A stretch of 64,000 nucleotides of DNA, taken from contig NZ_AUNE01000002.1 of NCBI RefSeq assembly GCF_000447755.1, forward strand, positions 1 to 64,000, given 5' to 3'. The translations under genes and the position numbers were made by a program. Under the pieces are notes generated by a model. It searched no databases. It had not been told where the DNA came from and saw only the letters and a list, made by a program, of their open reading frames with translations. Below are positions 10,102 to 53,109 of the stretch, piece after piece. The stretch comes from Bacteriovorax sp. BSW11_IV. GTDB lineage: Bacteria > Bdellovibrionota > Bacteriovoracia > Bacteriovoracales > Bacteriovoracaceae. Each line of letters begins with the position of its first letter. Within the stretch, counting starts at the first letter, position 1.

Positions 10102-10108
10102 TCCTAAC

Positions 10109-33138: not shown

Positions 33139-34094
33139 TATTCATTCCAGTTTGTGACGTTTCTTGAGGCCTTGGCCAAAAAGTCTATGAGAAGAAAATG
33201 TCTTCTCATTGTTCTATTATAACGGTGATCTTTCATTGGGTTGAATAGCCCTTCAATATTAAAAAGTTGAAGCGGATTTTTTCTAACCCAATTCCATGAA
33301 CCCATCTCTAAAGTCCAAGGAATATAGACACCATTTGGATTGTGTTTCATATACTCATCAAAGAGATAGTCCCAAAGATCACCATAGATTCCATAAGAAG
33401 CACTTTGAGGTTCTATTTGGTAAACGTGATGAGGAATTGTATTGTTAAACAAATTTATAAGTGAATCAATTTGTGGCTGCATAATACTTGGATTATTTGT
33501 GTAGCCATAAGGATACCAAAGTCTATCGACAAGGCCAAAACCAGAGTGAAAATCTACTGAAAGCGCAACTTTAGAAGGGAAGATTTCCTTTTGGATGAAA
33601 TCCACAAGTGCATGACTTTCTTTTTCCATTTCACCTTCAACTCCACGATACCAAGGAAGTTTATTTGAAAACGTATGACCAGAAATTAAAGGAATAGTAT
33701 TTTCTACATCTTTAATCACTGGGGCGTTTCTCATGAGATCAACACCTCTAGGGTTTGACCTTTTGAAATGGGCCATTCCGGCTGGATTAATTAAAGGAAT
33801 AGAAACGATTCTAAACTTTGAAAATAATTCTCTTAAATCACGATCCCACTTTAATTGATAAAAAAGACTCGAGAGATAACTAAGCACTACGTGTGTACCA
33901 ATTTTCTCTAGACCATGCACTCCACCAAAAAGACCAAGCACTGGGGCCGTCTTATCTTTTGTTCCAATTGAAAATGAAACGATAGGGTAGTCTTTATTTT
34001 TATAGTTGATGGTATCAAGTACATTTGTACTTATAAGTGGATCTTTGTTCTCACAAAGATGCTGAATGGTTTCCAATTCTTTAGACTTGAACAT
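33138..34094 (-). CDS. M14-family zinc carboxypeptidase-like protein
   Basis: 318 aa, no signal peptide. Zinc ligands: His60 and Glu63 in FGGVHGLEKIG and His183 in SVDFHSGFG; the catalytic Glu263 lies in WTLEMGSWNW. NPRGVDLMRN (114-123) supplies the Arg that binds the substrate carboxylate or phosphate. The pattern is closer to bacterial M14 and DUF2817-like members than to digestive carboxypeptidases, so it may trim peptidoglycan peptides or other small peptides in the cytoplasm. It forms a two-gene operon with the alpha/beta hydrolase. Confidence 0.85.
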   Translation of the reverse strand: MFKSKELETIQHLCENKDPLISTNVLDTINYKNKDYPIVSFSIGTKDKTAPVLGLFGGVHGLEKIGTHVVLSYLSSLFYQLKWDRDLRELFSKFRIVSIPLINPAGMAHFKRSNPRGVDLMRNAPVIKDVENTIPLISGHTFSNKLPWYRGVEGEMEKESHALVDFIQKEIFPSKVALSVDFHSGFGLVDRLWYPYGYTNNPSIMQPQIDSLINLFNNTIPHHVYQIEPQSASYGIYGDLWDYLFDEYMKHNPNGVYIPWTLEMGSWNWVRKNPLQLFNIEGLFNPMKDHRYNRTMRRHFLLIDFLAKASRNVTNWNE

Positions 34095-34175: not shown

Positions 34176-37100
34176 TTAGTAGCAGTTAAAAGGTGTTGAA
34201 CCAACTTGACCAATCATATGAGCCGCTTGCCATCTTGCACCATCCCAATAGATTGTCGCTTCAACTTTTCCTGGACCAGTTACAGTTGTTACATTTGAAG
34301 GGTCTTTGAGCGCCGCCTGCCAACCTGACCATGTTAAGTGTATAAGTCCATTTCCATTTGGATGAACTCCAAACGTAACAGAATATTTTCCTGGCCATGT
34401 AGTCTCAGTATCTTCAAAAGTATAATTTGCATGCGACCCTGCGACACAGCCCTGATAATCGCGAAGACGAGGTCCGTTGTCTTGCCAATTGAGAGTTCTG
34501 TTTCCACTTGCGATAACTTCCGCATTTGTCCATGGAACTGAAATATCTTGAGTTGTTCCATCGTGGAAAACTTTGATAACGCCGTAACCTGAGTTTGTAA
34601 CCCCTTCTCTGGCGACAATTCTATCTGTCACAAGAGCGTCTTTTAAATCTGTTGTTAAGGAGCCAAACGCTTCAACATTGGTAATTTCATCGTCGGCAAC
34701 AAGACGAAGTTGGTTAACTCCTGCACTACCTGCTGATGCGTAACCAGTGAAGCGCCAATTTGTAACACTTGAATTGCTGTTAATAGCAATGGCCAAGTAT
34801 TTTTCTGCGGCGTAGTCGACATATTTAAGTGTGACTCCTTCATTGTAACCAATCACTGAACCGCGACAAGTTTGATAAGCACAGGCGGTATTCACTTCAA
34901 GTGAAATCTTTCTATTCCAAGTGCCAGTACTTCCTCTTTCACCATTTATGCGACCGAGTACATACGACTCTGAAAGATTTGTTCCAATATAGGCCTTATG
35001 AAGAAGTATGTAATTCACACCACCGGAATCTTCTGTTGATGTTCTACCTGTTATTGTTCTGTTTATGAGATAATTTTTTGAACCATTGACGACATTAAGT
35101 TTTGAATCAGTATTTGGATTAGGTGTACCGATTCCAACACTTCCTCCTTCAGAGATAGAAAGTCCAATTGTGTCGTCGCCATCAGCGGCATCTCCAGTAT
35201 AAATAAGCACACCTTCTTCACCACTTAAATTGAGTTTACCTGTTCCAAATTGACGGATTTCATTTCCATCAATGGCCATAAACTGTCCTTCAGCATTACT
35301 AACAACAATTCCCGAATTGCCCATATTGGCCGAAGAAGCTGCAATCGTAAGACCGTGTGATGTATGAACTTGTAGTTTCCCGGTCGGCGTTGTTGTTCCC
35401 ATACCGATATTTCCATTTCCTGCAATTGTAAGTTGATCAACCTCAGTCGCAGGTGTGGCATTATCTGAATTTCTTTGTAATGCTCCAATTTTCATAACTG
35501 CATTAGAAGCATTTGAAACACTTTTTTCAGAGCGGATATAGTGACCAGCAACATATCCTACATCTCCGTGGTTTGGAGTTAAAAGTATCCCTGCAGTTTG
35601 CTGTCCACCTGAAGTGTATTTTTGTGAACCCACTTGGATATAACTTGCAGAGTTTGTATTCGAACTTGGGGCAGAGAATCTTGCCACAACGTTATTGGGG
35701 GCATCACTTGTTTCAATATAATTATAAATAGAACGATTACTTCCTACATCAAGCATTGATAGTGGATTCGTCGTCCCAATACCAACCTTTCCATCATTTT
35801 TTATCGTGACGTAATCATTTGTTCCAAGTCCACCAGGACCCGCAATTGAAAATGATCCTGTAGCATCATTAAGACCCATATTTACTTGGTCACCAGCACC
35901 ACTGTCGGGTCTAAATGTCATATAGGTATTTGTGGCCCCAGTGGATTCTAAAATCATGCGACCATCACTTGCTGCGATATGGGCCGTTACTTCTGGAGTT
36001 GTCGTCCCAATACCTAACTTCCCATCGTTTTTAATAACTGCTTTCGTTGAAGCGCCTGTGTTGAAAATAATATCACCGGAAGTATTAGCATCTGAATCGG
36101 CAGTGATCACAGCATTTGTTGTATTACTTGAGCTCTCAGCATTAAGTCCAGTAAGTGCTGAACCATCTCCTTGGAAGGCCGTTGCCTTGACTGTTCCTGT
36201 AACTTCTAGAGGAGTTGAAGGAGTTGTATTTCCAATTCCCACGTTTCCATTGGTATCGATAATCATTCTTGTTTGACCGTCTGTTTGCAATAACATTTGT
36301 GCGGCCATGGGATTTTTTATGGCCGTCATTGGTTCTACCGTGGCGAATGCAGGAGTCGTTCCATCATCTAAGATGGCCACAGGGGCGGTAGATGCAGTTG
36401 ATTTCACCACAACATTATAAGTATAGCTATTTCCTACCTGTCCAAATCGTAAATAAGCAGTGGAAGTGGCGCTGTCAAAATACCATTGATAGCTTATTAA
36501 ATTATTGCTCACTTCGGCATGTAAAACACGAAAAGCAGTTGTTCCTCTTGTTAGTGCCACTGTGAATTTGGCCGCGACAGCTGTTGTGGAATCGGCCGTT
36601 GTTCTAATAGAGCGAACTTCAACTTCAGTGAGTTGAGGAGTTGCAGGAAGAGAGAGAAGAATTCTTTTACCTGCAGTTGCATCAGCATGGGGTAATGAGA
36701 TTTTTGTTGCCCAACTATATTCAGTTTGATTGAGAGAAAGATTTCCTTGAACATCTAAAGTGGCCAAAGGTGTAGCGCCACCAATTGCAACTTTTCCAGT
36801 ACTATAACTTAGATCATTGGTCGTTTTTGTCCAGTAGTTAATTGCAGCTGGATCTGCATCAATAGTGATATCACTTGAAAGGGCACCGCCTCCTGTGAGT
36901 CCAACTCCTGCTGTTACTGTCCTTGTGTCAGGCACGGCCCCAACGTCTGAAGCTGTGGCCCCTGTTTTACTTATCTTTGCCCAGTCAATGGGACCAACGA
37001 TTTCACTATTTTCAATAGTGCTTCCAAGCTTTGAAACATTACTTGAAAGTTGAGTATCTGGAAGTGTTCCCGTTGTTATTTTAGAAGCATCAACTCCACT

Positions 37101-38561
37101 TGCAATCATGGTATTTGTAATACCACCTGTTGCCACTGAAATTGTTCCTGTCGAAGTAATAGGTCCACCTGTAAGACCTGCTCCTGTCGCAATATTTGTA
37201 ACTGTTCCCGTTGTATCAGAAGGCCAACTTGTGCGGCAGTCTGTACCAATACAAAGCTCTGTTGCCTTCACGCCTCCAGAGACTTCTAATTTTTTAGTAG
37301 GGGAAGCAACTCCAACTCCGACATTGACATTAGTGAAGTTGATTTTTGTTCTTGCTGCATCGATACTTGAAATTTCTAATACGGAATTATCTTCTGCGAT
37401 GCTGTAAGAATCCCCAATAATAATAGAACCGTTAGGTGTTCCATCCGCTGTGTCAATATAGAGGTTTTTAATAAAAGCATCGCCTTCAACATGCAACTTA
37501 CGCGAAGGAGTAGCGGTTCCTATTCCCACATTGCCCGTAAGGCGATATACATTTCCACTATTCTCAGTCCATAAATCTGTATTGTCGTCATTTGCACAAG
37601 CAACAAAAATTGGACCTGCCTGATATTTTAAAATTTGACCCGGTAAACATTCTGCTGAGAAATCTGCAAGCTCTATTGTTCCATCTGCGATCATTGCAGA
37701 GGTGATGCTAGGGATTCTTGCACTAGCGAATACACCAGTAGTAATTTTTGCGGCATCTAAATCATCTAGTCGTGTAGCTGGAAAAGTTCCTGAACCTATT
37801 TTTGTAGCATCTAAAAGAGGAATCCTTGCCGTTGCAATTGTACCTGCAGTTATTTTTGAAGCATCAATGTCAGCACCTAGTTTTGCATTTGTAATGGAAT
37901 TGTCTTTGACTTCAATTTCATTACTAACATTAAGACCAATAGTTGCATTGTCATATTTAACATTAACCGTTGCACTACCAGTTGGATCTGTGACAGTTAT
38001 GGCCTCTCCTGCATTTACTCCTGTAACAGTTCCAGAAGCACCACTTAAATCATCAGCACATGTCATATTGCCACTACCATCAAATTTAATAATTTTTCCA
38101 GCGCTACAAGTTCCACTTGTTATCTTTAGATGTCTCACTTCAATACTTGCATCGTCTACAGATTTTGCTTTTTGTGAATATAAAGAAATAGGAGAGTTGT
38201 TAATCTTTTGTTTTGTATAGGTCTTTGTATTTGTTCTATCTGTGATTTGAATATAAAGAGAAGAGCTGCTTGCAATGGCCTCACTGATTATTGTCGTTAG
38301 AGTTTTTGTATTTCCTTCACAAGTTGTTGCATAATCAAATTCAATATTGAAAACACCGTTTGCGAGATTCACGCCATCAATGTCAATTGAACATTTTGAA
38401 GTTGTATCAACAAGGATTTCAGCAGTTAAATTGACTGGACCAGATAAGGGCGCACCTGAGGAAGCATCAGTGAGTCGACCAGAATACGAAATTTTATCGG
38501 CCGCATAAATTTGCAGTGAAAATAAGAGAAGTGAAAATGGAAGCCACTTTTTTATCGTCAT
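34176..38561 (-). CDS. giant secreted fibre protein without S74 domain (fibre 2)
   Basis: 1461 aa with a signal peptide ending at IYA. The N-terminal domain (KISYSGRL ... GAPLSGPVNLTAEI ... NGVFNIEFDYATTC) is almost the same as in fibres 3 and 4. Eight G-x-V-G-I-G-T-x-x-P shaft repeats follow. The last 330 residues are a unique tip starting after the final repeat (near residue 1130), ending GSTPFNCY. There is no S74 chaperone, so trimerisation must depend on the tip or on another protein. It is transcribed from its own sigma-28-like promoter as a single gene. Inferred role: an adhesive surface fibre with a recognition tip, comparable to Bdellovibrio mosaic adhesive trimers. Confidence 0.82.
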   Translation of the reverse strand: MTIKKWLPFSLLLFSLQIYAADKISYSGRLTDASSGAPLSGPVNLTAEILVDTTSKCSIDIDGVNLANGVFNIEFDYATTCEGNTKTLTTIISEAIASSSSLYIQITDRTNTKTYTKQKINNSPISLYSQKAKSVDDASIEVRHLKITSGTCSAGKIIKFDGSGNMTCADDLSGASGTVTGVNAGEAITVTDPTGSATVNVKYDNATIGLNVSNEIEVKDNSITNAKLGADIDASKITAGTIATARIPLLDATKIGSGTFPATRLDDLDAAKITTGVFASARIPSITSAMIADGTIELADFSAECLPGQILKYQAGPIFVACANDDNTDLWTENSGNVYRLTGNVGIGTATPSRKLHVEGDAFIKNLYIDTADGTPNGSIIIGDSYSIAEDNSVLEISSIDAARTKINFTNVNVGVGVASPTKKLEVSGGVKATELCIGTDCRTSWPSDTTGTVTNIATGAGLTGGPITSTGTISVATGGITNTMIASGVDASKITTGTLPDTQLSSNVSKLGSTIENSEIVGPIDWAKISKTGATASDVGAVPDTRTVTAGVGLTGGGALSSDITIDADPAAINYWTKTTNDLSYSTGKVAIGGATPLATLDVQGNLSLNQTEYSWATKISLPHADATAGKRILLSLPATPQLTEVEVRSIRTTADSTTAVAAKFTVALTRGTTAFRVLHAEVSNNLISYQWYFDSATSTAYLRFGQVGNSYTYNVVVKSTASTAPVAILDDGTTPAFATVEPMTAIKNPMAAQMLLQTDGQTRMIIDTNGNVGIGNTTPSTPLEVTGTVKATAFQGDGSALTGLNAESSSNTTNAVITADSDANTSGDIIFNTGASTKAVIKNDGKLGIGTTTPEVTAHIAASDGRMILESTGATNTYMTFRPDSGAGDQVNMGLNDATGSFSIAGPGGLGTNDYVTIKNDGKVGIGTTNPLSMLDVGSNRSIYNYIETSDAPNNVVARFSAPSSNTNSASYIQVGSQKYTSGGQQTAGILLTPNHGDVGYVAGHYIRSEKSVSNASNAVMKIGALQRNSDNATPATEVDQLTIAGNGNIGMGTTTPTGKLQVHTSHGLTIAASSANMGNSGIVVSNAEGQFMAIDGNEIRQFGTGKLNLSGEEGVLIYTGDAADGDDTIGLSISEGGSVGIGTPNPNTDSKLNVVNGSKNYLINRTITGRTSTEDSGGVNYILLHKAYIGTNLSESYVLGRINGERGSTGTWNRKISLEVNTACAYQTCRGSVIGYNEGVTLKYVDYAAEKYLAIAINSNSSVTNWRFTGYASAGSAGVNQLRLVADDEITNVEAFGSLTTDLKDALVTDRIVAREGVTNSGYGVIKVFHDGTTQDISVPWTNAEVIASGNRTLNWQDNGPRLRDYQGCVAGSHANYTFEDTETTWPGKYSVTFGVHPNGNGLIHLTWSGWQAALKDPSNVTTVTGPGKVEATIYWDGARWQAAHMIGQVGSTPFNCY
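35770..36150 (-). repeat. shaft module shared with fibre 3 (copy A)
   Basis: Encodes TNAVITADSDANTSGD ... EVTAHIAASDGRMILESTGA ... DYVTIKN, nearly identical in protein to the block at about 40640-41010 in fibre 3. Boundaries are approximate. Confidence 0.75.
37500..37910 (-). repeat. N-terminal core block shared by fibres 2, 3 and 4 (copy A)
   Basis: Encodes the stretch from SITNAKLGADIDASKI through LDDLDAAKITTGVFASARI, LPGQILKYQAGPIFVAC and the first VGIGT repeat. Nearly the same protein is encoded at 42520-42935 and 50385-50805. Boundaries are approximate. Confidence 0.78.
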
Positions 38562-38618
38562 TAAATTTCAACCAACGTACAGCTAAATAAGAGTAAAAAA
38601 TCATTAACTGCTCTTATT

Positions 38619-38646
38619 ATATCGGCAATTTAGATATATTTATTTA
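38619..38646 (-). promoter_or_regulatory. sigma-28-like promoter of fibre 2
   Basis: On the minus strand: TAAA, 16 bases, GCCGATAT. The downstream TAATAAGAGCAGTTAATG is identical to that of the fibre 3 promoter. FliA consensus spacing is TAAA-N15-GCCGATAA. Confidence 0.6.
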
Positions 38647-38722
38647 AATTCAGATTCAAAGAATAAGCTCTTGAAAGTTAATTGTGTTTCATTGGGTTAA
38701 ACACTCGCTGGTGACAAAAATA

Positions 38723-41700
38723 TTAGTCAGTTCTAAATGAGATTCCTTCGAGAGAAATCCAAACATTTGACCCACTAGTCGGTTGAACACATCCATTGGT
38801 CAAAATATCCATACGACCAATTGTATTGGGATCAGTTTGAACAGATTGTAAAATGCGGTACGCAGGAGTGTAGCCTGTAGGGAGTGTGAAAGCACAAGTG
38901 ACAAATGTTCCACCTGTGATTAAACCTCTCAAGTGAACAATGCCATTGTTGTCTTTATAATAACCAGCAGGAGAATATCCATTATTGTAATTAGTCCAAG
39001 AATTTTGAAATGTAGGTGATTGCCATGACTCAAGAGTAGGGATTTTGTGAATCTCTACTGATTCAATCACTGAGTTTCCTGTTCCATTATAATTGGCAAT
39101 GATGACGACATTAAAGTATTTTGCTCCCGGATCAAATTTATTATCTCCTGTTCCTCCTGCAATATTATGACCTGAAATAACTCCTGATGCCGTATAGGTG
39201 CTTCCTGCAGCAAGATTATAGGCCTCGGCAGCGAAGTAGTTGTAAGAGTTTTCATTGTCAGCTTTAATACTTGTAAAATTTGCGTCTAGTGAATCAGCTC
39301 CGACATAGAAAGTACCAGTGCCATCAATTTTTTTCGCTCTTACTGTTACTCGATATGAACCTTTCGGATCTATGGGAATACGTGAATTGATAAGAAACCA
39401 TGAGTTTCCAGTCGCCTTCATCCCTTTATCTGCAGAGCTATAAACTATTGTTCCTGATTGCGGAATGATCATGTCAGACCAGTCTTGATCTCCAAGCTGT
39501 ATTCCCATACTAGGATTGTATCTGGTAAGAGGATTTCCTCTAACGTCGATATTTCCATTGTCTTGAATGGTAATAGCGTTTTTAAAATTTGTTGTTCCAA
39601 GAACAAGGTCAGTATTTGAAGAGGCCCTAATTTTAGCGGCAGTGAGATCTGTTCCATCAGCTTCGTATCCAATGACGACTCCACCTTCTGTTGTACCTTT
39701 TTCAAAACGTGCGAGCCAATGCTCTCCACTAACAACACCTAAATCTTTTTGTAAATGAAGCGGGTCCGTTGGAGCATTCGGGCCAATTCCAAACTTACCA
39801 TCTGCGCTCATAATAAAGTTGGTTGTATATGTTGAGGGTTTTGTAAAAAAATCTGCAGAAGTTTCAAAGTATAAATTACTCGCATCTGCCCTAAGTCTTA
39901 TATCTTCGGGATCACTTACTGTTTTATCTTTAAAATATAAAGAAGGTTGATAGTTTGAGATGACAATACCATCATCATCATCGTTAGTGCCTTCTGTCGC
40001 TATATCTCCTGCACTAACTTCAAATCGTGACAATGGTGTCTCTGTACCAACACCAACGCGTCTATTTGTTCCAACATGAAAAAAGTTTGTCCATGAGTCT
40101 GTGACAAGTGCTTTGTGCCAAATTTGAAAACTATCAGTTGATGGTCTTACTCCATAGGCAAATGCATTTGTTTGAGCATTGTCATCCCCATCATAAGAAG
40201 AATAAAAATCTAAGTTTGGAGAATTATCAGTTCTTGAAATCATGATGGCATCATTGGCCGGATTAGTTCCATAAATTGAAACTAAAAAGTTTGGATCAGG
40301 AACCGTTGTGTTGATCCCAATATGTGGCCCTAGGGCATTTGCTCTTAACGTTAATGGAGTAGAAGTATTCGCGTTAGCACCACCGCCAGTCTCTGTGTCA
40401 GTATTGTTAATACGGAAGATTATTTTTCCTTCGACCTCATCGTTTTGATAATTCTGAACAGTCGTTCCATCCGTTAAGTGAGTTGAAAATGATTCACTTA
40501 CACTTGAACTTCTGAAAATACTGAATGGTCTATTGGCCCAAGGATCTGGACTTTCTGCTAAGTATGTTCCTGAGATGATGGCCGTTGGAGTTGAGCCTGC
40601 TCCTTGCACATGGAGATAGGCGGCAGGACTTATTGTATTAATCCCTAGAAAACCATTGTTTTTAATCGTTACATAATCATTAGTACCAATTCCGCCAGGA
40701 CCTGCGATTGAGAAACTTCCTGTGGCATCATTTAATCCCACATTAACTTGATCGGTAGCACCACTATCTGGTCTAAAAGTCATAAAAGTATTTGTGGCCC
40801 CTGTTGATTCTAAAATCATTCGTCCATCATTTGCGGCTATGTGTGCTGTGACTTCAGGTGCAGTTGTTCCGATACCAAAACGACCATTGTTTTTTATAAT
40901 GGCCCTTGTAGAAGCGCCAGTATTGAAGAGAATATCCCCTGAAGTATTTGCATCTGAGTCGGCAGTGATCACGGCATCTGTTGTATTGCTTGAATTTTGA
41001 GCAGTGATTCCTGTTAGAGCTGAACCATCTCCAACAAATGCGGTGGCCTTAACTGTTCCAGCGACATCTAGTTTTTGGGTTGGAGCATTTGTTCCAATAC
41101 CAATATTGTTATTTTTTGCAGCATAAAGTTGGTTTGATAAACGAGTGTATTCTTTTGCAGAAACTTCGGCCGTGAGATTGGCATTATCTTGACTGATAAA
41201 GGTAAACACTTCGGGATCTGTTGTTTGTTTGAACCCTTGGAAGCCAATTCTGTTGGCATGAAATTCGCTGCCTGTATCATAGCGAAGTGCCCACCAGTTT
41301 TCACCTTTGTAAGTAATTTCAGTCAGCGCAATTTTATTTTCGATTCGATATGCTTTTGTGATTTCGCCAATGTCTGCATATGCAGAAGAAGTATCAATGA
41401 CCACATCAACAAAATAGGGGCGCGGTATGGCATCACTCGCGCCACGGTGGCCATAGATTCTTCCGTAGATTTTGTCTTCACTTGATGTTTTTGCGAGAAG
41501 AAGATAGGTGATTTTAGTGTAGTCGTAGCTGGCATAGTTCACATAGTTATGAGTATAAAAACCTGAAAACTCAGCAGGTCCTTTAACTGTAAGCATAGAA
41601 GTAGGTGTGGTCGTACCAATTCCAACTTTTCCACCTCTTGTAATTGTAACAAGCTCTTGTGAATCAACGACACCTGTCCCACCATAAATATGAATTTTAT

Positions 41701-43579: not shown

Positions 43580-43630
43580 ATTTCACAACAAACGTGCAGC
43601 AAATGTTAAAGCGCATTAACTGCTCTTATT

Positions 43631-43658
43631 ATATCGGTATTTTAGGTGGATTTATTTA
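43631..43658 (-). promoter_or_regulatory. sigma-28-like promoter of fibre 3
   Basis: On the minus strand: TAAA, 16 bases, ACCGATAT, then TAATAAGAGCAGTTAATG, the same as in front of fibre 2. Confidence 0.58.
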
Positions 43659-43742
43659 TCTTTAGGATAGGTGTCTAAGTAATTGTTTGCTCGAACAAAG
43701 TTTTTAAGTGGGATTTATTAATATGGCAATATTATTGGCCAA

Positions 43743-46700
43743 TTAACGGACGTAAATAATGACTTGGCGTGAATCATTCCCAAGGGCATCTCCACTACAA
43801 TAAGGGCCTGATTGGCTTGTGCCTGCTCCACAATAGGCCGTTCCAAGGCCCCACCAATTGACGGCGTAACGATTATTTACTGTACAGCAATCTCTCATGA
43901 AAAAGCCCTTCGTACTATTTGTAAAACCCATATGAAGCTGCATTGAAGGTACTGTAGAGTAACCCCATGTTGGTCTTTGAATCCAAGTTGCAGGAACGTT
44001 AGAAAATAGAGTCGTCTGATTATCAGAAACATTTTGCTGTGAAATTGTTCTTTTGATTTGATGATAACCAGATTGGTTGGCCGTTGCAGTTTGCTGACCA
44101 ATGAGAATGTCGCTAAATCTCATGCCTGTATTCATGACACCCATTGAGTAGGCCTCTGAGGTTGCTTGTAAAGAGCCTGTCGATGAATACCATCCGAAGT
44201 CCATCAAGTTATTATTTGGAAGCCAGTTTTTGCCATTGCTTTGGCAATCAGTTTGATTGGTATAAGTTGGGTCATCACAGGCGTATTCTCCTGCTGTTGG
44301 AGGGCGAGTTCGAGCAATAAGAGTCCATCCACCACCATCAGTTGTCATATCACAATAGGCAAGCATTGGAGCAATAGCGCCATTACCATCTGTATCAATG
44401 ATATAATATCCATCTCCCTTTGAGAGTCCCATACTCAATATTTCTTTACAAGATTTATAGTTTTTATCAATGCGTGAAAATAAAGAGGCTTGAGCTACAC
44501 CATTGCTTGAACCGTGAGTTTGATCAGAGGCCGGCATACCTACAACAGTACCCCATCCCTCAGTTGCACCAATTGCGTAAAACCAATTCGTATGATTAAT
44601 AGAACCATCTAGTAAAGAACCATCACCATTTGTAGGTCCATGGGTTCCATTTCCAAGTTCAAGACCACCCCAAAAATTTGAAGTGGCATCGAGGTAGAGA
44701 CCAGCATAGCCAGCAACATTTACATCATCAGTGGGAAGTGATGTTTGTGTCCAATAGTTTCTTTTTCCATTGTCAGGCCAGCGAATCTCTAATTGATAGC
44801 GGCCATATTTATTAAACCAAGGTAATTTGTCTATGATGGAGTAGAGATTAGATTCAGGCCATCTTTCATTGCTGTTGATTGCTGCACTTGTAGAAGCAAA
44901 ATATCCACCAGCAATATTTTGATAAAAGACTCGTGTTAAAGCACGACCCTTGTCATAAATTTCATCAAATTTACAATAAACTCTAATGGGAGTTGTGTTC
45001 GCTTTCCAAAGTGGCTGCACAGTATAGTAATCATTCGCTGTTACTCCTTGATAGGCGAGAACATCACAACTTTCAGGATAAGGAACATTAAAACTATGAA
45101 CATTTTTAAGATTTGCAATCTCTGTATCGCTTAGAGTTCGATCAAAAACAAAAGTTCTTGTAATGTCCCCAATAAAGAATCTGTCACCACTATAAGCATT
45201 CGAAACAGTTCCCCCTATGAAGAGTTTTTCATTGGCGAGGTTAATAGTATAAGAATCTGTGTGAACTAGGGCCCCATTGTGATAGAGCTTAATTGTGCCG
45301 TTATTATATGTGTATGCGATGTGCTGCCATGTGTTTAGTTGGATTTCATTACCTGTTGAACATCGATTGGTATCAGAGTTGGTAGTGCTATACTCATGAA
45401 AACAAAAATTCTGATTATTTAAAACTAGTCCAGCATCAATATTATTTCCAACTCCTTGGCCTATAACGACTTTGAAACCACCTGTGGTCGTTGGTTTAAT
45501 CCATGCCGACACGCTAAATGCGTTTGTGTCTTTTATTGGAATAGGTGAGTAGACTTTGTCATAGGTCGTTGCGCCTTCAAATTGTAGGGCGGTATTTGGA
45601 ATACCATCTGGTCCTGTTGAAAAAGTTGCTCCTGATATCGTGGCCCTTCTTCTTTGAGGACCATTGTCATAGAGCTCTCCCGGATAAGTTGGATTGTTTT
45701 CAAAAATTAGATGAGATACTAGACCTGTTCTTAATGAACCTGAAAAATCACAATAAGTAGTGACGCTCGTTTTACCATCAGGAAAGATTTTATAGTTACC
45801 ATCAGTAATACTTGGAGTTCTATCAAACAAATCAAAACAGTTTTTTGGAAGAGAGTTGTCTCTAATATAGTAGCGTGCAATGACATTGGCATCTCCACCG
45901 TTAAAGCCACCAACACCTCGAACTCTATTGGCATCAGTGTTACTTACTCTGCTGTAGATCCAATCTCTTGGGAAGTTCTCGACATCTGAGATTCCAGTTT
46001 GATCAAATGTCTCAGGATGACAATTTCCCCACCCAATATTCGATCCGGAGCTTCTCATTTGATTAGCTGAGTATGTAACACCACGGCTATTTCTAAAAGT
46101 AAATTGCTCACTGTTTGGCAATGGATCACATGTGTCTGAAGATGAAACAAGTGTACCCGAAAGAAAAGAGTTTAAAGTTGAGTTTTGCTCAAATTTAATT
46201 GCACTGTAATCAGTTGCTGCCCAATTCCCAATATCCTTTGCCATAATTTCTGTGGCCGTAGGGAATTTCGAAATATTAAGCATTCCTGTAAGAAGGGGAT
46301 TATCATGATTGTATGTAGAAAAAGAAATTCCCGGAGTATTTGCTAGATACCAATCGAAATGCTGTTTAACTGGGGTTGATGCATTTGCTGAGTTCGCATA
46401 AAATAGAGTCCAACCTCCACCGTTTGTAACCATGTCGCAATAGACATCAAATGGCGCATTTCCCTCTGGACCATCGGGATCAATTTTATAAACACCACTT
46501 TGCACAGATGAATATTTGGCCAGTTCGTTACAACTTTTTGGGTAGTAGGGGCGAACCCAAAATTCTGTTTTTGTGGTATTCGTTTCAGTTCCTGAATAGT
46601 AAGCAGGAATTTCTCCAGAACTATAATCGACAAAAGATGCTATAGCGTAGTGCCAGTTTGAAACACCAACTGAGCCATCTATAAAAGAACTAGTACAAGC

Positions 46701-47378
46701 GATCGAGCAGTTTCTTTCAACTCCACCCCATGAAGCACCAGAATAGGTTATATCTATCGGAAAATATCCTGCAACGGGTTGATTTACAGTTGGATTTGTC
46801 TTTTGTACCCATACATGTTTCGCTGCAACTCCTGCCCAGATAAAACTGAATGTGAAATGGTCCTGGCTACGGAAAAGTTCTAACTTGTTTAGAATGGAAT
46901 AATCTGTTGCAGTTGGAGTATTTTCATTTTTTAAATAGGCTTCTCTTAATGTGAAAAGATATGGTCTAGTTTGTCTTAATAAAAGTGTCCAACCTCCATC
47001 TTCTCGGAAGTCGCAGTAGGCATTGAATGCGGGGTGGCCACTTGTCCCATCGGGATCAATAGAAAAAACGCCATCAGTTCTTTCACCTACTTGGAAATAA
47101 GAATGACAATCTTTTAACGAACTTGTTCCAGTTACAGTTAAACCTGTTGGAACATTTGCCATGAAAGAAGTCCACGTCGCTGCAGATTGGGTTGGAATAT
47201 AGAAGTTGTTATCTGTATTGTTTGCAACGTGAAAGAAGCCACTTGTTGATTTAATGTATCGGCTTGTCCTTGCTTCGACAACATAGCCTTCACTTTGAGA
47301 ATTGATAGCAAAGATAAATTGTGGTGTGAATAATAAAAGAAAAAAGATCGTCTTAAACAAACTATTGTCCTTTTTCAA
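43743..47378 (-). CDS. secreted protein with five fibrinogen-like modules and a LamG-like insertion (lectin 2)
   Basis: 1211 aa with a signal peptide ending around IFA. Five Cys ... G-x-Y-x-I-x-P-D-G ... Y-C-D modules occur. Modules 1, 2 and 5 keep (G)GGWTL; module 3 stops at TYCDFSG and module 4 has YCKFDEI instead. Module 3 is followed by a LamG/concanavalin-like domain (about 545-760: FSVSAWIKPTTTG ... NTWQHIAYTYNNGTIKLYHNG ... IGDITRTFVFDRTLSDTEI), a carbohydrate-binding jelly roll. Its start overlaps the end of fibre 4 by 17 bases, so both are translated together. It is the counterpart of lectin 1 behind fibre 1. Inferred role: multivalent surface lectin. Confidence 0.82.
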   Translation of the reverse strand: MKKDNSLFKTIFFLLLFTPQFIFAINSQSEGYVVEARTSRYIKSTSGFFHVANNTDNNFYIPTQSAATWTSFMANVPTGLTVTGTSSLKDCHSYFQVGERTDGVFSIDPDGTSGHPAFNAYCDFREDGGWTLLLRQTRPYLFTLREAYLKNENTPTATDYSILNKLELFRSQDHFTFSFIWAGVAAKHVWVQKTNPTVNQPVAGYFPIDITYSGASWGGVERNCSIACTSSFIDGSVGVSNWHYAIASFVDYSSGEIPAYYSGTETNTTKTEFWVRPYYPKSCNELAKYSSVQSGVYKIDPDGPEGNAPFDVYCDMVTNGGGWTLFYANSANASTPVKQHFDWYLANTPGISFSTYNHDNPLLTGMLNISKFPTATEIMAKDIGNWAATDYSAIKFEQNSTLNSFLSGTLVSSSDTCDPLPNSEQFTFRNSRGVTYSANQMRSSGSNIGWGNCHPETFDQTGISDVENFPRDWIYSRVSNTDANRVRGVGGFNGGDANVIARYYIRDNSLPKNCFDLFDRTPSITDGNYKIFPDGKTSVTTYCDFSGSLRTGLVSHLIFENNPTYPGELYDNGPQRRRATISGATFSTGPDGIPNTALQFEGATTYDKVYSPIPIKDTNAFSVSAWIKPTTTGGFKVVIGQGVGNNIDAGLVLNNQNFCFHEYSTTNSDTNRCSTGNEIQLNTWQHIAYTYNNGTIKLYHNGALVHTDSYTINLANEKLFIGGTVSNAYSGDRFFIGDITRTFVFDRTLSDTEIANLKNVHSFNVPYPESCDVLAYQGVTANDYYTVQPLWKANTTPIRVYCKFDEIYDKGRALTRVFYQNIAGGYFASTSAAINSNERWPESNLYSIIDKLPWFNKYGRYQLEIRWPDNGKRNYWTQTSLPTDDVNVAGYAGLYLDATSNFWGGLELGNGTHGPTNGDGSLLDGSINHTNWFYAIGATEGWGTVVGMPASDQTHGSSNGVAQASLFSRIDKNYKSCKEILSMGLSKGDGYYIIDTDGNGAIAPMLAYCDMTTDGGGWTLIARTRPPTAGEYACDDPTYTNQTDCQSNGKNWLPNNNLMDFGWYSSTGSLQATSEAYSMGVMNTGMRFSDILIGQQTATANQSGYHQIKRTISQQNVSDNQTTLFSNVPATWIQRPTWGYSTVPSMQLHMGFTNSTKGFFMRDCCTVNNRYAVNWWGLGTAYCGAGTSQSGPYCSGDALGNDSRQVIIYVR

Positions 47379-50300
47379 GATTATCTAGTCTCTCTAGGAT
47401 CGATTGCATTGCCTTGTTTTGCAATTCAATTTTTTCTTTTAGAACTTCGTTCTCTTCTTCCAGTGATGCAATCTTGCGTTCATATCCTTCGACTTTATCA
47501 TTGAGCTCTTTTACGGCCTCAACAACAGGTGCAACTAAGTTGGCATATTTTACGGCCTTATAACCAGAAGTTTCATCTGTGACAACAAGTTCAGGAAAAA
47601 TCTCTTCCACTTCCTGAGCAATAAAACCATAAGTTTTAAGATCATTCTTTTTCCAAACAAATGAGACACCGCGAAGACGTAGTACTTTATCAAGTGCAGA
47701 ATCAATCGGGTGAATATTTTTTTTCAAGCGGCGATCAGATGTTGTAAGGTACGATGTCGCTTTGACATTGTTGGCCACTTCAAGTTGTTCAGAAGGTGCC
47801 GCAACTCCAATTCCTACTTTTCCGTTATTGCCAATTTGCATGATATTTAAATTTGCTCTGGACTTAAAGCTCATCCCATCAAGAGTTGAGTTGAAGTGAA
47901 GTCTCATATCATAATCGTCTGCAGTATTGTCTTTGAAGTCGATATATCCTGCAGTGTCCGTAGGAGTCGTAGCTGGATTGCGATAAATTTCGACGCCTTC
48001 ACCAGTTAATCTTGTACTGCCGGTTGAACTTTTAACTTCAAGTTTTGCACTTGGAGTTGTTGTTCCAATCCCAACGTTTCCAGCTCCATTCATCATTAGA
48101 CCTATACTGTCAACACTCGCAGTGTTTCCTGATGAATAGCGAATGGCAAAGGCATCGTCTGTATTGTTATTTCTTAGATCCATTATAAAAGATGCATTTG
48201 TAGGCCCTTGAATTACCCCTCCATTTGTAGTGGTTGTTCCAGGATTAAGTGCTGATATATCTTCAGCTGGACTGAGTCTAATGGCCGTGCCTGAACCTGT
48301 CGCATTGGAAACTCTTGCGACACCAATAACTTCCAAGTCTGCACTCGGTGATTCGGTTCCAATACCTACATCTCCAGTGGCAGTAATTGTCATTCTTTTT
48401 GTATCATTGGTAAATAAACTCATTGGTTGAGCAACAGTGTTACCAATCATAATTTGATGGTCTGTAACAATTGTATTTCCATCAAAGAACATATTTGGGC
48501 CTGTGGCATTTTCTTGAATTCGAACTACTGCTCCGGCTGTGTTCATGGCCCCAATACTTCCCATGGATGTTGTTTTAAAAACATGGAGTCTCGCATCAGT
48601 AGGAGTATTTGTTCCTATTCCAGTGTCACCAGCTTTGTTAATTCTCAATGTATCAACGCCACCGACTTGAACTCCAAAGTATGAAAGAGCATTTTCATTA
48701 TTTTTATCAACTTGAATATTGAAACCACCATTTGCCGACTGGGCAAGAATAGAGTGGTCAACTCCTGTGTCTGTATCTGTAAAATCCATCGCGGGAGTTG
48801 TGCCAGAGATATGGAACATACTTGAAGGTGAAGTCGTGCCAATACCGATCTTACCATCATTTTTAATCGTCATTTTTGTGGATGCACCTGTATTGAATAA
48901 AATATCACCAGTCGCATTGGCATCAGAGTCGGCAGTGATGACAGCGTTTCCTGTATTGCTAGAGCTACTTGCATTTAATCCTGTTAAACCAGAACCATCT
49001 CCGATAAAGGCCGTGGCCTTAACAGTACCGTTGACGTCAAGAGCTTGAGTGGGGGTGACTGTTGCGATACCAATTTTTCCATCACTTTTGATGACCATTC
49101 TTGTTTGTTCTATAGTTGAATTATCGGGAGTTGTTCTAAACTCCAAGCGTCCTGGCATATCATTGTCTCCAGGAACTCCATCTATGTGCCCAACGATCCT
49201 TGCAACATTGTGATATTGATCACCGTCGTACCCTTGACCCCATAGCGTAAATATTTCGTCATTGTTTTGAACGATCGTTCTTGCGTCTACAGTCCCGCGC
49301 GATTTTCTTAGTTGTAAGTGAGAACCATTTACATTGTCACTGCTTCTTGAATTGATAATTGCAGGGTTATTTTCAACATGAAGTCTATACTCAGGAGTAT
49401 CTGTCCCAATTCCCACATAACCATTATTTCTTCTAATTGTAAGGGCATTAATATCTTTAGTGATATCTTTATCACTTGAGTCGTGAGCTCCAATATGAAG
49501 AAGATTTGTTGAAGAAGCATCATAATGAATGTAAGTACCTTGATATGTACCATTACCTTCAGTGAAGCGAATTCGACCACCTTCAACTTGATTGATACCA
49601 CTTCCTCGCAAATGGATAATAGGTCCATCATCTTGGTGGTCAGCCCCAGCTATTGTTAGTGCATTTTCTATACTTGTTGTTCCAATAGCAACTTTACCAG
49701 TGTTGTAGTAGAGATCATTTGTGCTTTTAATCCAGTAGTTGATGGCCGTTGGATCAGCATTTAGAGTAATGTCACTCGACAATGCTCCTCCGCCAGTGAG
49801 ACCTGTACCAGCTGTTACTGTTCTTGCCGTTGGAACTGCTCCTACATCTGAGGCCACGGCCCCAGTTTTGCTTATTTTTGCCCAATCAATGGGACCGACG
49901 ATTTCGCTATTTTCGATAGTAGAACCAAGTTTTGTAACATTTGATGAAAGCTGTGCATCTGGAAGAGTACCAGTCGTTAATTTTGAAGCACTAATTCCTG
50001 ATGCAACCATTGTGTCAGTAATACCACCAGTTGCAACAGAGATCGTTCCTGTCGATGTAATCGGTCCACCAGTAAGACCCGCGCCTGTGGCAATATTTGT
50101 AACAGTTCCAGTCGTATTCGAAGGCCATGCAGTTCTACAGTCTGCTCCAATACAGAGTTCTGTCCCTTTTATGCCACCATTGACGTCTAGTTTTTTCGAT
50201 GGAGTTGATAATCCGATTCCGACATTTCCTGTTTCAGTAAGGCGCATAGAATTCGCAACACTAGAACTATTATTATAAAATCTTAAATCTCCGGCGTTAG

Positions 50301-51450
50301 TAAGACTGATCGTCGCATATTTAGCGCCATCAGTACTTTCCATCTTTATTCCACCATCAACGGTGTCCATAGAAGATTTAATAGTTAGTCTTGCTGATGG
50401 AGTTGTTGTACCAATACCAACGTCACCTGTAGCACGATAGACATCACCAGAATTTTCTGTCCATAGATTTGTATTATCATCATTCCCACAGGCCACAAAA
50501 ATGGGACCCGCTTGATATTTTAAAATTTGACCAGGAAGACATTCTGCTGCGAAATCAGAAAGCTGAATAGTGCCATCTGCTATCATGGCAGAAGTGATAC
50601 TTGGTATTCTTGCTATTGCAAAAACACCTGTTGTAATTTTAGCAGCGTCTAAATCATCAAGTCGAGTCGCAGGAAAAGTACCAGAGCCAATTTTGCTTGC
50701 ATCAAGAAGTGGAATTCTTGCATCAGCAATTGATCCTGCAGTAATTTTTGAAGCATCGATATCGCTGCCAAGTTTTGCATTTGTTATACTTCCATTTTTT
50801 ACTTCAAGTTCATTTGATACATTCACTCCAACAGTCACATCATCAAAAAGAACATTGATGGCCGGGCTTGTTGTAGGGTTTGTTACATTTGTTGCAATAC
50901 CTGAATTGACATCAGTAACAGTTCCAGATGCTCCACTGATATCTGTCGCACATGTTAAGTTTCCGCTAGCATCAAATTTTAAAACTTTCCCATTATCACA
51001 AGTTCCACTAGTAATTTTCAAATGACGTAGTTCAATTGATGCATCTTCAACTTGCATGGCCTTTTGGGCCACAAGGGCAAGGGGAGTGCTATTAACTTTT
51101 TGTGCTGTATATGTATTAGAGCCTTCTGTTACTCTAATTTCTAATTTCTTATCACCAGTAACGGATTCAGAAATAATTGATGATAAATTTTTTGTATTAC
51201 CATCACATGTTGTGGCGTAATCAAATTCAACGTTGAATACACCATTGGCCAAGTTGACTGTAGGGAAATTGAGTGAACAGCGAACACTATCATCAACAAG
51301 AATATCGAAAGTTAATGAAACTGGTCCGGATAGTGGCGCACCATTCGAAGGTTGAACTAATCGACCAGAGTAAGAAATTTTCTCACCCGCCAGTGCAACA
51401 CTCGATAATAGAAATAATGTTAGCGCCAAAATTCTCATTAGTTCTGCCAA
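47362..51450 (-). CDS. giant secreted fibre protein with C-terminal S74 chaperone (fibre 4)
   Basis: 1362 aa with a signal peptide ending at ALA. The N-terminal domain and core block match fibres 2 and 3, followed by ten G-x-V-G-I-G-T-like repeats. At Ser1238 begins SDRRLKKNIHP, then LRGVSFVWKK, YGFIAQEVEEIFPELV and a coiled coil (about 1310-1360): the S74 intramolecular chaperone. The Ser-Asp-x-Arg-x-Lys motif needed for self-cleavage is complete. So this fibre combines the N terminus of fibres 2/3 with the C terminus of fibre 1, direct evidence of mosaic evolution. It leads an operon with lectin 2. Confidence 0.88.
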   Translation of the reverse strand: MAELMRILALTLFLLSSVALAGEKISYSGRLVQPSNGAPLSGPVSLTFDILVDDSVRCSLNFPTVNLANGVFNVEFDYATTCDGNTKNLSSIISESVTGDKKLEIRVTEGSNTYTAQKVNSTPLALVAQKAMQVEDASIELRHLKITSGTCDNGKVLKFDASGNLTCATDISGASGTVTDVNSGIATNVTNPTTSPAINVLFDDVTVGVNVSNELEVKNGSITNAKLGSDIDASKITAGSIADARIPLLDASKIGSGTFPATRLDDLDAAKITTGVFAIARIPSITSAMIADGTIQLSDFAAECLPGQILKYQAGPIFVACGNDDNTNLWTENSGDVYRATGDVGIGTTTPSARLTIKSSMDTVDGGIKMESTDGAKYATISLTNAGDLRFYNNSSSVANSMRLTETGNVGIGLSTPSKKLDVNGGIKGTELCIGADCRTAWPSNTTGTVTNIATGAGLTGGPITSTGTISVATGGITDTMVASGISASKLTTGTLPDAQLSSNVTKLGSTIENSEIVGPIDWAKISKTGAVASDVGAVPTARTVTAGTGLTGGGALSSDITLNADPTAINYWIKSTNDLYYNTGKVAIGTTSIENALTIAGADHQDDGPIIHLRGSGINQVEGGRIRFTEGNGTYQGTYIHYDASSTNLLHIGAHDSSDKDITKDINALTIRRNNGYVGIGTDTPEYRLHVENNPAIINSRSSDNVNGSHLQLRKSRGTVDARTIVQNNDEIFTLWGQGYDGDQYHNVARIVGHIDGVPGDNDMPGRLEFRTTPDNSTIEQTRMVIKSDGKIGIATVTPTQALDVNGTVKATAFIGDGSGLTGLNASSSSNTGNAVITADSDANATGDILFNTGASTKMTIKNDGKIGIGTTSPSSMFHISGTTPAMDFTDTDTGVDHSILAQSANGGFNIQVDKNNENALSYFGVQVGGVDTLRINKAGDTGIGTNTPTDARLHVFKTTSMGSIGAMNTAGAVVRIQENATGPNMFFDGNTIVTDHQIMIGNTVAQPMSLFTNDTKRMTITATGDVGIGTESPSADLEVIGVARVSNATGSGTAIRLSPAEDISALNPGTTTTNGGVIQGPTNASFIMDLRNNNTDDAFAIRYSSGNTASVDSIGLMMNGAGNVGIGTTTPSAKLEVKSSTGSTRLTGEGVEIYRNPATTPTDTAGYIDFKDNTADDYDMRLHFNSTLDGMSFKSRANLNIMQIGNNGKVGIGVAAPSEQLEVANNVKATSYLTTSDRRLKKNIHPIDSALDKVLRLRGVSFVWKKNDLKTYGFIAQEVEEIFPELVVTDETSGYKAVKYANLVAPVVEAVKELNDKVEGYERKIASLEEENEVLKEKIELQNKAMQSILERLDNLEKGQ
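50385..50805 (-). repeat. N-terminal core block shared by fibres 2, 3 and 4 (copy C)
   Basis: Partner of 37500-37910 and 42520-42935, encoding LDDLDAAKITTGVFAIARI and LPGQILKYQAGPIFVAC. Confidence 0.78.
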
Positions 51451-51485
51451 TATAGTTCAGTTAAGTTAATTTAACTGCATTGTCT

Positions 51486-51515
51486 TTATCGGTAATTATA
51501 GGCCCTTAATAAGGG
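51486..51515 (-). promoter_or_regulatory. sigma-28-like -10 element and palindrome upstream of fibre 4
   Basis: ACCGATAA (51493-51486, minus strand) matches the FliA -10 with one mismatch. No TAAA stands at the right distance; instead a 13-base palindrome, CCCTTAATAAGGG (51503-51515), covers the -35 area and may bind an activator or repressor. Confidence 0.45.
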
Positions 51516-51592
51516 ATCATGATGATAACTTAATGTTGTCGTTGTAAGTGTTTGTAAATTAGAAATTATTTTGGTCCAATCTTAAGAGATAA

Positions 51593-51632
51593 AAGCGAAA
51601 ATGCCTGTTAAAACAGGCATTGGCCTTCGCTT
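51593..51632 (-). terminator. intrinsic terminator of the Ser-rich protein gene
   Basis: Inner stem ATGCCTGTT / AACAGGCAT (51601-51609 with 51612-51620) inside an outer AAGCGAA / TTCGCTT pair, with TTTTCGCTTTTAT following the inner stem on the minus strand. The outer arm includes part of the stop codon. Confidence 0.7.
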
Positions 51633-53088
51633 AATTTAAGATATTTAAGGCCCCTGATTCTAGATATGCTGTCACGTTTGATGTATCAACGCCGCTACCT
51701 GAAGCGCCCGCGCCAAAGTGGCCGTAGCTGTTGAAGTGACCTTGAAATTCCATATGGCCGTTACCGTTAACAGGAACCGAACCTGTTGAAGAGTTGAAAT
51801 CCATTAGATAATCAAAGTCACTAAGTACGATGATATCAGTTGAACATGAATATAAGTGAGAGTCTTCATAAACAGTATTTTCAATTAAAGAAACGATGTA
51901 ATTTGGTCCATAGCTTAACTCTCTTTTTACATCACTCAAAACATAGGCCCCACTTAGAGAAGCAAGGTCGTATTGGTCAGCATTACCATCATTATCAATA
52001 TCAAGACCAACTGTTGCATGATCGTTATTTTCTGAAATCTCAGAACACGTACTTCCCGTTGGGTCGCTTGGTAAATTATAAAATCTCATATAGTGATCAC
52101 TCTCACCAAAGTCAGTGGAAGTTACATTAATACTTAGGGCCTCTGTTGTTTGTAGGTATCTTACGTTTGGAGTAACAGTAAGGTCTGGAACTTGTGAGTC
52201 TACAGTATATGTATAATCGATTTTATCTAGGAATGAGCCGTTAGCGCTTTGGCCAGCAATTGATAGACAGTAATTTCCATCTCCAGATGAAATAGGAAAT
52301 GAACTTGAATAAAGTTGTCCACCTGAAGTTGGATCACAACAACTTCCATTTCCAATACAGTAATAGATTCCAGCAACATCTTGACCTGATAAAGTAATTG
52401 TCGGAATTTGTGAATATGTACCAGAGGCCTTGTCTGCATAAAAAGATGGGTCTAAAGCTTCCGATGGAGATGGAATATTTCCACCGCTAGAGCTAGTAGA
52501 ACTATCTCCTGATGAAGATGAAGAACTGTCACTTTCTGTTGTTGTCGTTGATGAGACCGTCTGTCCACAGTTTTGTCCACATCCTGATACTGCTTCTGAA
52601 TCACCTGCAGCAAAACTTCCTTCATTACTTGGAGAAGAGCTATTTGAAGAGCTTCCGCTATCTCCAAGAGATGGTGCAGATGAATCAGAAGAAAATGAAG
52701 AAGCAGATGAAGAAGGAGAAGAATAACTTGAACCACTTGAAGAAGATGAAGAAGGACTAAAACTTGAACCTATTGATGAAACATTCTCTGGCTCATAGGC
52801 CTCACTTTGTTCTGAGGCCAAGTCTTGAATATTATCATTACTTCTTGTTGGTGATTCATTTACTGAACTTGGGGCACGATTTGCTTGATTGGCCACAACG
52901 GGCTTTTTACTCGTATTATCATCCCAATACTTTTCAGTATCATAGTCTTTGTAATCCTTTTCGATACTCTCTTTCTTATCAACTTGCGCAACTTCTGGAA
53001 CTTCTGGTCGAAGAAGGAAAGGGAGTACTAAAGTCGCAACGACTGTTAGTGATGTAATGGGAAATTCTTTAATTGTTTTTAAAATCAT
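51631..53088 (-). CDS. membrane-anchored Ser-rich surface protein
   Basis: 485 aa from the ATG at 53088 (a TTG 9 bases upstream is also in frame). A single N-terminal transmembrane segment (about 9-28) is followed by a charged region (DKKESIEKDYKDYDTEKYW), then about 100 residues dominated by Ser (about 100-205) and a C-terminal beta-rich part with paired cysteines (GCGQNCG, YYCIGNGSCCD). A DIDNDGNADQYDL stretch resembles a calcium-binding loop. It ends in Gly/Ser/His-rich sequence. The low-complexity stalk suggests a surface-displayed head. It lies directly upstream of the fibre island with its own sigma-28-like promoter and may help anchor or display fibres (inference). Confidence 0.65.
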   Translation of the reverse strand: MILKTIKEFPITSLTVVATLVLPFLLRPEVPEVAQVDKKESIEKDYKDYDTEKYWDDNTSKKPVVANQANRAPSSVNESPTRSNDNIQDLASEQSEAYEPENVSSIGSSFSPSSSSSSGSSYSSPSSSASSFSSDSSAPSLGDSGSSSNSSSPSNEGSFAAGDSEAVSGCGQNCGQTVSSTTTTESDSSSSSSGDSSTSSSGGNIPSPSEALDPSFYADKASGTYSQIPTITLSGQDVAGIYYCIGNGSCCDPTSGGQLYSSSFPISSGDGNYCLSIAGQSANGSFLDKIDYTYTVDSQVPDLTVTPNVRYLQTTEALSINVTSTDFGESDHYMRFYNLPSDPTGSTCSEISENNDHATVGLDIDNDGNADQYDLASLSGAYVLSDVKRELSYGPNYIVSLIENTVYEDSHLYSCSTDIIVLSDFDYLMDFNSSTGSVPVNGNGHMEFQGHFNSYGHFGAGASGSGVDTSNVTAYLESGALNILN

Positions 53089-53109
53089 AACCGTCAACCT
53101 ACGTGCAAC

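Follow-up and report, generated by a model that had tools for sequence, protein, structure and literature searches.

S74-type MAT-like fibres paired with fibrinogen-like lectins suggest a two-component adhesin in Bacteriovorax and related bacteria

The window, the 64,000-nucleotide stretch of Bacteriovorax sp. BSW11_IV DNA analysed here, contains a cluster of five genes that are transcribed from the - strand, from position 53097 down to 34176, in the order P0005 (Ser-rich protein), P0004 (fibre with a Peptidase_S74, or S74, end), P0003 (lectin), P0002 and P0001 (fibres). A second pair of S74 fibre and lectin, P0006/P0007, is encoded on the + strand at 5365-13690, beyond the cluster. The features are as follows.

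51631-53097, - strand: Ser-rich protein P0005, 488 aa, 20% Ser, with an N-terminal hydrophobic membrane segment and a conserved C-terminal domain.
47362-51450, - strand: S74-type MAT-like fibre P0004, 1362 aa, with a base domain, VGIGT shaft, 28-aa end, S74 chaperone and coiled coil.
47740-47823, - strand: putative 28-residue mature fibre end of P0004, GKVGIGVAAPSEQLEVANNVKATSYLTT, the proposed docking site, directly preceding the cleavage Ser.
43743-47378, - strand: lectin P0003, 1211 aa, TTG start, with a dock domain, fibrinogen-like modules and a LamG module.
47115-47315, - strand: dock domain of lectin P0003, 67 aa, from alignments A4/A6; family structure model with pLDDT 92.8.
38723-43579, - strand: MAT-like fibre P0002, without S74, 1618 aa, with a phage tail-fibre-like C-terminal tip.
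34176-38561, - strand: MAT-like fibre P0001, without S74, 1461 aa, with a Bd1334-homologous C-terminal tip.
5365-10101, + strand: second S74-type fibre P0006, outside 34176-53097, ending RVGIGVATPTETLHVGGNVLATAYLYT/SDLRFK (here and below the slash marks the position before the self-cleavage serine).
10109-13690, + strand: second lectin P0007, with a dock domain and five FReD modules, 7 bp behind fibre P0006.
10178-10378, + strand: dock domain of lectin P0007, 67 aa, the sequence used for modelling (AlphaFold2 pLDDT 92.8, pTM 0.77).

These genes, their domains and their order are direct observations; export is a prediction, made by eye from hydrophobic N-termini. All five open reading frames of the original prediction were found on the - strand, and its VGIGT shafts and fibrinogen-like and LamG modules were borne out by the repeats and by matches to Fibrinogen_C, Laminin_G_3 and GGGWT_bact. 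Its description of the cluster as encoding only very long proteins fits the fibres and the lectin (1211-1618 aa) and not the Ser-rich protein. Three of its four fibres are in the cluster; the fourth, P0006, lies outside, with its own five-module FReD lectin directly 3'. That earlier reading had missed the Peptidase_S74 end of P0004 and the 17-bp overlap of the P0003 gene with the 3' end of the P0004 gene.

A Pfam scan of the cluster flanks identified genes for an abhydrolase, an M14 peptidase, a C26 peptidase, a DMT exporter, a methyltransferase, an ABC-type ATPase and an amino-acid kinase. The cluster was looked for in relatives and was found syntenic in the one congener examined, where the order is identical (Ser-rich protein, S74 fibre, lectin, two fibres) and so are the flanks, with the methyltransferase, DMT exporter and C26 peptidase on one side and the M14 peptidase and abhydrolase on the other. 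The M14 carboxypeptidase and abhydrolase genes that border the cluster in both congeners lie at 32383-34094 in the window. The shared order and flanks indicate that the cluster is an inherited locus; a recent insertion, the sense carried by the word "island" in the original prediction, is therefore rejected. They also bear on whether the cluster is a degraded prophage or tailocin fibre module, an origin that would fit the phage-like shafts, the S74 domains and the phage tail-fibre tip on P0002 and that we consider very improbable. The genes scanned in or beside the region include none of a capsid, portal, tail-tube or integrase family, in agreement with the original prediction, and the flanks hold no linked virion or lysis genes; moreover, the N-termini are export-like, the open reading frames of 1,200-1,600 residues are intact, and the family extends across many genera. 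Between the two species the lectin is 61% identical and the S74 region 85% identical. The 5' parts of the fibres show ~40% protein identity to their syntenic congener genes, with little DNA match, whereas within one genome the 5' parts of paralogues are ~70-77% identical as DNA. This high paralogue versus low syntenic identity suggests concerted evolution of the fibre base.

The fibres resemble the mosaic adhesive trimer (MAT) fibres of B. bacteriovorus, for which S74 self-cleavage at the motif serine and surface display have been shown (PMC10769870). As in MAT fibres (PMC10769870), the window fibres combine a signal-like N-terminus, a probable beta-rich base domain (by profile homology), a VGIGT capping-loop shaft and either an S74 (SDxxxK) end or an alternative tip, with tip swapping. 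VGIGT/GIGT repeats were confirmed in the cluster fibres, and this capping-loop sequence pattern is the one feature of a trimeric beta-helix that was seen. P0004 matches Pfam Peptidase_S74 (8.3e-19, motif SDRRLK), an SDxRxK motif is present at the S74 of both P0004 and P0006, and ten S74 matches were obtained in the window's genome (whole-genome fibre counts are from profile searches). The P0001 tip is homologous to the solved Bd1334 tip (PDB 8on4/8oml, E 5e-25); in the alignment the two tryptophans of the cage and the pair of Cys are conserved, and Tyr takes the place of the terminal Trp. The P0002 tip shares 43-46% identity with tail-fibre tips of Geobacillus and Janthinobacterium phages, and a PDB search with it returned chance matches only. 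Each fibre thus ends as a MAT fibre does, P0004 and P0006 in S74 and P0001 and P0002 in distinct adhesive tips of Bd1334 and phage type.

Unlike MATs, the window fibres are longer, lie in a syntenic cluster and have bases that fall below the NCBIfam Bdello_MAT_N cut-off of 60 bits (24.4 bits for P0004, 17.3 bits for P0006, and no match in P0001, P0002 or the congener fibre). Base-domain profiles nevertheless align with the Bdellovibrio MAT base, a conserved beta-rich domain of ~130 aa behind the signal peptide, at an hhalign probability of 92% (E 5.6e-7). This profile comparison supports homology, and the window fibres appear to be divergent MAT-like proteins below the NCBI threshold for the formal MAT label. 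The likeness to Bdellovibrio MATs in the original prediction therefore holds for the Bd1334-type tip, the two S74 fibres and the base profile homology, and stops short at the Bdello_MAT_N cut-off.

No Fibrinogen_C genes other than P0003 and P0007 were found in the window's genome. P0003 matches Pfam Fibrinogen_C (8.6e-25) and Laminin_G_3 (6.3e-24) and NCBIfam GGGWT_bact (5.5e-52), and P0007 matches Fibrinogen_C (6.4e-40); both Fibrinogen_C matches are above the cut-off, so that each protein carries the FReD signature. Module 4 of P0007 aligns over both halves with fibrinogen chains and ficolins, with matches to ficolin, FIBCD1 and tenascin, and retains a DADND...NCA...FWY..C pattern (FDADND...NCATLY...FWYQACWSGSMNG). 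We take its FDADND...NCATLY motif to resemble the calcium and ligand region of ficolin-type lectins. The window lectins share the GGGWT half-module with the ficolin, FIBCD1, tachylectin-5 and intelectin lectins, to which P0007 module 4 adds the DADND calcium-type pattern and an NCA...FWY..C..S.NG region; unlike those lectins, P0007 is a bacterial, predicted exported protein with five tandem modules and an N-terminal adaptor domain. The AlphaFold2 model of whole P0007, made together with 17 relatives, was poor (pLDDT 53) and was excluded from the fold search. Lectins in the order sample comprise a P0007-like type, a P0003-like type with LamG and a type of ~930 aa. Modules that are FReD-like and resemble those of the lectins also occur in tail-region proteins of the cyanophages S-CAM4 (L240) and S-RIM14 (L241) and in the gp35 hinge connectors of KVP40-type Vibrio phages.

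In a Fibrinogen_C search of 116 genomes of the order, every multidomain FReD lectin longer than 900 aa was found immediately 3' of a co-oriented S74 fibre, at a gap of -17 to +11 bp, and one S74 fibre has two tandem lectins behind it. Two loci with smaller, single-module Fibrinogen_C open reading frames (L028, L029) showed no fibre pairing, and most S74 fibres have no lectin partner. In all, an adhesin gene lies directly 3' of the fibre gene for 17 fibres in the order and for about a dozen pairs in Bdellovibrio. The lectin partnership put forward in the original prediction is thus strongly supported by the comparative evidence, with large lectins pairing only with S74-type fibres and tied to a 28-residue fibre end.

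This end has the consensus PSExLEVxGNVKAxxYLYT/SD and the full pattern G-x-[VI]-G-[IV]-G-x-x-x-x-[ST]-E-x-[LI]-x-[VI]-x-[GN]-[NK]-x-x-A-x-x-Y-[LE]-[YT]-T, and is present in 17/17 paired and 0/40 unpaired S74 fibres of the same genomes. Over a 35-aa stretch, paired fibres are 55% identical even with differing lectin types, as compared to 14-16% for unpaired fibres. Conservation begins sharply at residue -28, the preceding 80 residues being unrelated. A profile of the end plus S74, built from ten of the 17 paired fibres, gave as its best 17 matches in 129 genomes exactly the 17 paired fibres. Looser ends (FYYSSD, FVYSSD) occur in some genomes in which no dock domain was detected (G047, G033, G015, G073). 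Across genera, amino-acid identity of the end is 0.65 while its four-fold sites match at 0.367, against 0.349 expected, and are saturated. With the protein 65% identical and four-fold sites at chance, it is protein-level selection rather than recent transfer that keeps the end, and the fibre end is under purifying selection.

One could suppose that the fibre 3' end and the lectin gene have spread as one DNA cassette, their association reflecting linkage or shared ancestry and not function. The two genes adjoin or overlap, conservation sets in abruptly at residue -28, and the S74-domain tree, which is poorly resolved, with two supported independent contrasts and an underpowered phylogenetically controlled test, is compatible with few origins. 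However, protein sequence is kept where synonymous sites are saturated, the effector modules behind the dock domain differ, and at least five genomes retain both partners unlinked (below); such hitchhiking is improbable in our estimate.

The lectins have in common an N-terminal domain of ~60-67 residues, the dock domain, with the pattern CKKV.N......F[IV].TKT..EW..F..N.P and no Pfam name. AlphaFold2 with 46 sequences gave a confident fold (pLDDT 92.8, pTM 0.77), for which a fold search of the PDB and viral models returned no significant match and a sequence-profile search of the PDB no match. A dock profile search revealed that the domain is also fused to other modules, for example TSP1 and DUF3011 in G040, and that these dock proteins again adjoin S74 fibres, which end SFIYTSD, SFLYSSD, GFFYSSD or SYLHSSD. 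Varied modules behind the dock domain near similar fibre ends are what would be expected of an interchangeable adaptor. Of 23 fibres next to a dock gene, 22 have the tip motif, versus 7 of 65 fibres without such a neighbour; the Fisher p of 1e-13 for this is descriptive, since related genes enter it as independent and the motif was defined post hoc. The dock-neighbour fibre without the motif is in G004. Several dock proteins beyond these genera do not adjoin any fibre, and G287 has dock proteins and no S74 fibre match.

Two other genomes provide side observations. In G040, dock genes and fibres with related ends number three each and are mostly unlinked; one dock gene (L182:5275-5922), encoding a dock domain, a TSP1 repeat and a DUF3011-like end, is convergent with an S74 fibre ending SFIYTSD. 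At L187:2653-9649 (G087), the gene for an S74 fibre ending PSEKLEVTGNVRAVSFIST/SD shares 4 bp with the gene for a 1058-aa exported protein with no dock domain and no significant Pfam family, which is followed by a gene of the Ser-rich family described below. The 1058-aa protein is possibly another class of plug-on partner.

The genus Bdellovibrio served as a separate test, as it was excluded from defining the motif and the end plus S74 profile, with two lectins of B. bacteriovorus kdesi inside the dock profile. Dock-FReD lectins of ~475-490 aa lie there directly behind fibres, so that the paired system is not special to Bacteriovoracaceae. The three lectin-paired Bdellovibrio fibres tested pass Bdello_MAT_N at 209-228 bits, and paired fibres end PSExLEVNGNVKA..YLYT/SDAR. 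The end plus S74 profile matches 13/15 Bdellovibrio genomes with a dock domain and 0/6 without (p = 5e-4); the profile search took in 24 Bdellovibrio genomes, of which three are outside this comparison. The co-occurrence is also seen where genes are unlinked: FReD lectins and the matching fibre are separated by about 0.5-1.2 Mb or more in G218, G204 and G198, G224 and G232 have unlinked dock genes bearing other modules, and the unlinked fibres of all five genomes end [FY][LI]YTSD. In kdesi the lectins stand alone and no matching fibre end was found. The open reading frame before its two lectins (L073:8232-8936) joins a regulator-like protein to the 66 C-terminal residues of an S74 fibre of the lectin-paired kind (57.6% identity, E 9e-20). 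This fusion is likely the scar of a deleted fibre gene, which would make the apparent exception a case of fibre loss.

The observed co-inheritance of fibre end and lectin could also arise if the 28 residues were conserved for folding with their own S74 chaperone subtype, the downstream lectin being an independent, co-expressed adhesin. Consistent with this, the end runs directly into S74, paired fibres conserve the one as well as the other, and some dock proteins have no adjacent fibre. The unpaired fibres L042 and L040, however, lack the end although their S74 is closely similar to that of the paired L014 in the same genome, G005 (best paired-unpaired S74 identity 0.65), and the end tracks the presence of dock genes even when these are unlinked. 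Conservation for folding is hence an unlikely explanation.

A fibre with a separate tip protein is known from phages. In T2-type phages the separate adhesin gp38 sits on the fibre tip via its N-terminus and must match the fibre (PMC12892980). Like the gp37-gp38 pairs of phages T2 and S16 (PMC12892980, PMC10175313), the window pairs have a separate adhesin gene beside the fibre gene and a variable adhesin part. The gp38 N-terminus contacts the fibre end, and for the window pairs we infer a similar docking. The lectins were rejected as gp38 homologues: gp38 carries a polyglycine sandwich receptor domain, while the window lectins have instead a dock domain with FReD/LamG/TSP1 modules, on a cellular fibre. 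As in the S74 intramolecular chaperones of endosialidase and T5, the window S74 fibres have Peptidase_S74 with SDxRxK and a C-terminal coiled coil; unlike in those proteins, S74 release here would expose a docking end for a second protein and not merely a binding cleft. The main text of PMC10769870 describes for MATs no separate lectin gene of the kind that partners the window's S74 fibres. A two-part design of fibre and plug-on lectin was not described in the literature searched, and a literature search on fibrinogen-like lectins and Bdellovibrio returned no relevant paper.

How such a fibre is held to the cell is a further question, and PMC10769870 leaves open which element of the predator surface holds the MAT fibre base. 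The C-terminal domain of P0005 defines a family, A5, present in 29 of 129 genomes of the order. Of the 26 distinct members examined, 19 are at most two genes from a MAT-type fibre; some loci were chosen owing to a nearby fibre, and among 12 chosen without that knowledge five are near a fibre, where chance proximity is, by our own estimate, of the order of a few percent. No A5 member was found in kdesi. Guilt by association thus makes the Ser-rich membrane protein P0005 a candidate base anchor of the fibres. The window's genome contains a second gene of the family (L248:9069-10484; G000:C27), with no recognised fibre beside it and neighbours of ~800 aa.

Taken together, these data lead us to propose, with a probability of roughly 0.6, a two-component adhesin in which an S74 fibre and a plug-on lectin would work like gp37 and gp38 of phage T2. 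The mosaic adhesive fibres would come in two formats. P0001 and P0002, without S74, would bear their own binding tip. P0004 and P0006 would fold with the C-terminal S74 chaperone and then cut it off at the SD serine, which would bare the conserved 28-residue beta-helix end. The lectin, made from the overlapping or adjacent downstream gene and exported on its own, would plug onto the bared end via its N-terminal dock domain. Its fibrinogen-like modules in tandem, with LamG in addition, would then face glycans, in all likelihood those of prey. As a candidate holder of the fibre base we propose the Ser-rich membrane protein, whose gene lies upstream.

Alternatively, fibres and lectins might act not in prey choice but in adhesion to surfaces, biofilm or the wall of the bdelloplast. 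Some MAT proteins are deposited in a vesicle or in the bdelloplast, and deleting single MATs affects predation little; on the other hand, MATs are displayed on the surface of attack-phase cells, and glycans of prey LPS are bound by Bd2439 (PMC10769870). We regard a role confined to such attachment as rather unlikely, though less so than conservation of the end for folding. A wider form of the proposed fibre-lectin adhesin, which we hold tentatively and at somewhat below even odds, is a plug-and-socket system of the Bdellovibrionota. S74 self-cleavage would bare a standard 28-residue socket for adhesins that are exported and interchangeable (FReD, LamG, TSP1 and others), have a standard dock domain of previously unseen fold and are encoded beside the fibre or elsewhere, and the Ser-rich family would anchor the base.

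Recognition of many prey by predatory bacteria is an open question, and our analysis names a lectin family, a 28-residue fibre end, a dock domain and a candidate anchor family that are each small enough for direct test. If the proposed two-component adhesin is correct, it would provide a reason why many such fibres self-cleave, and the separate tip adhesin of phages would have a cellular counterpart.
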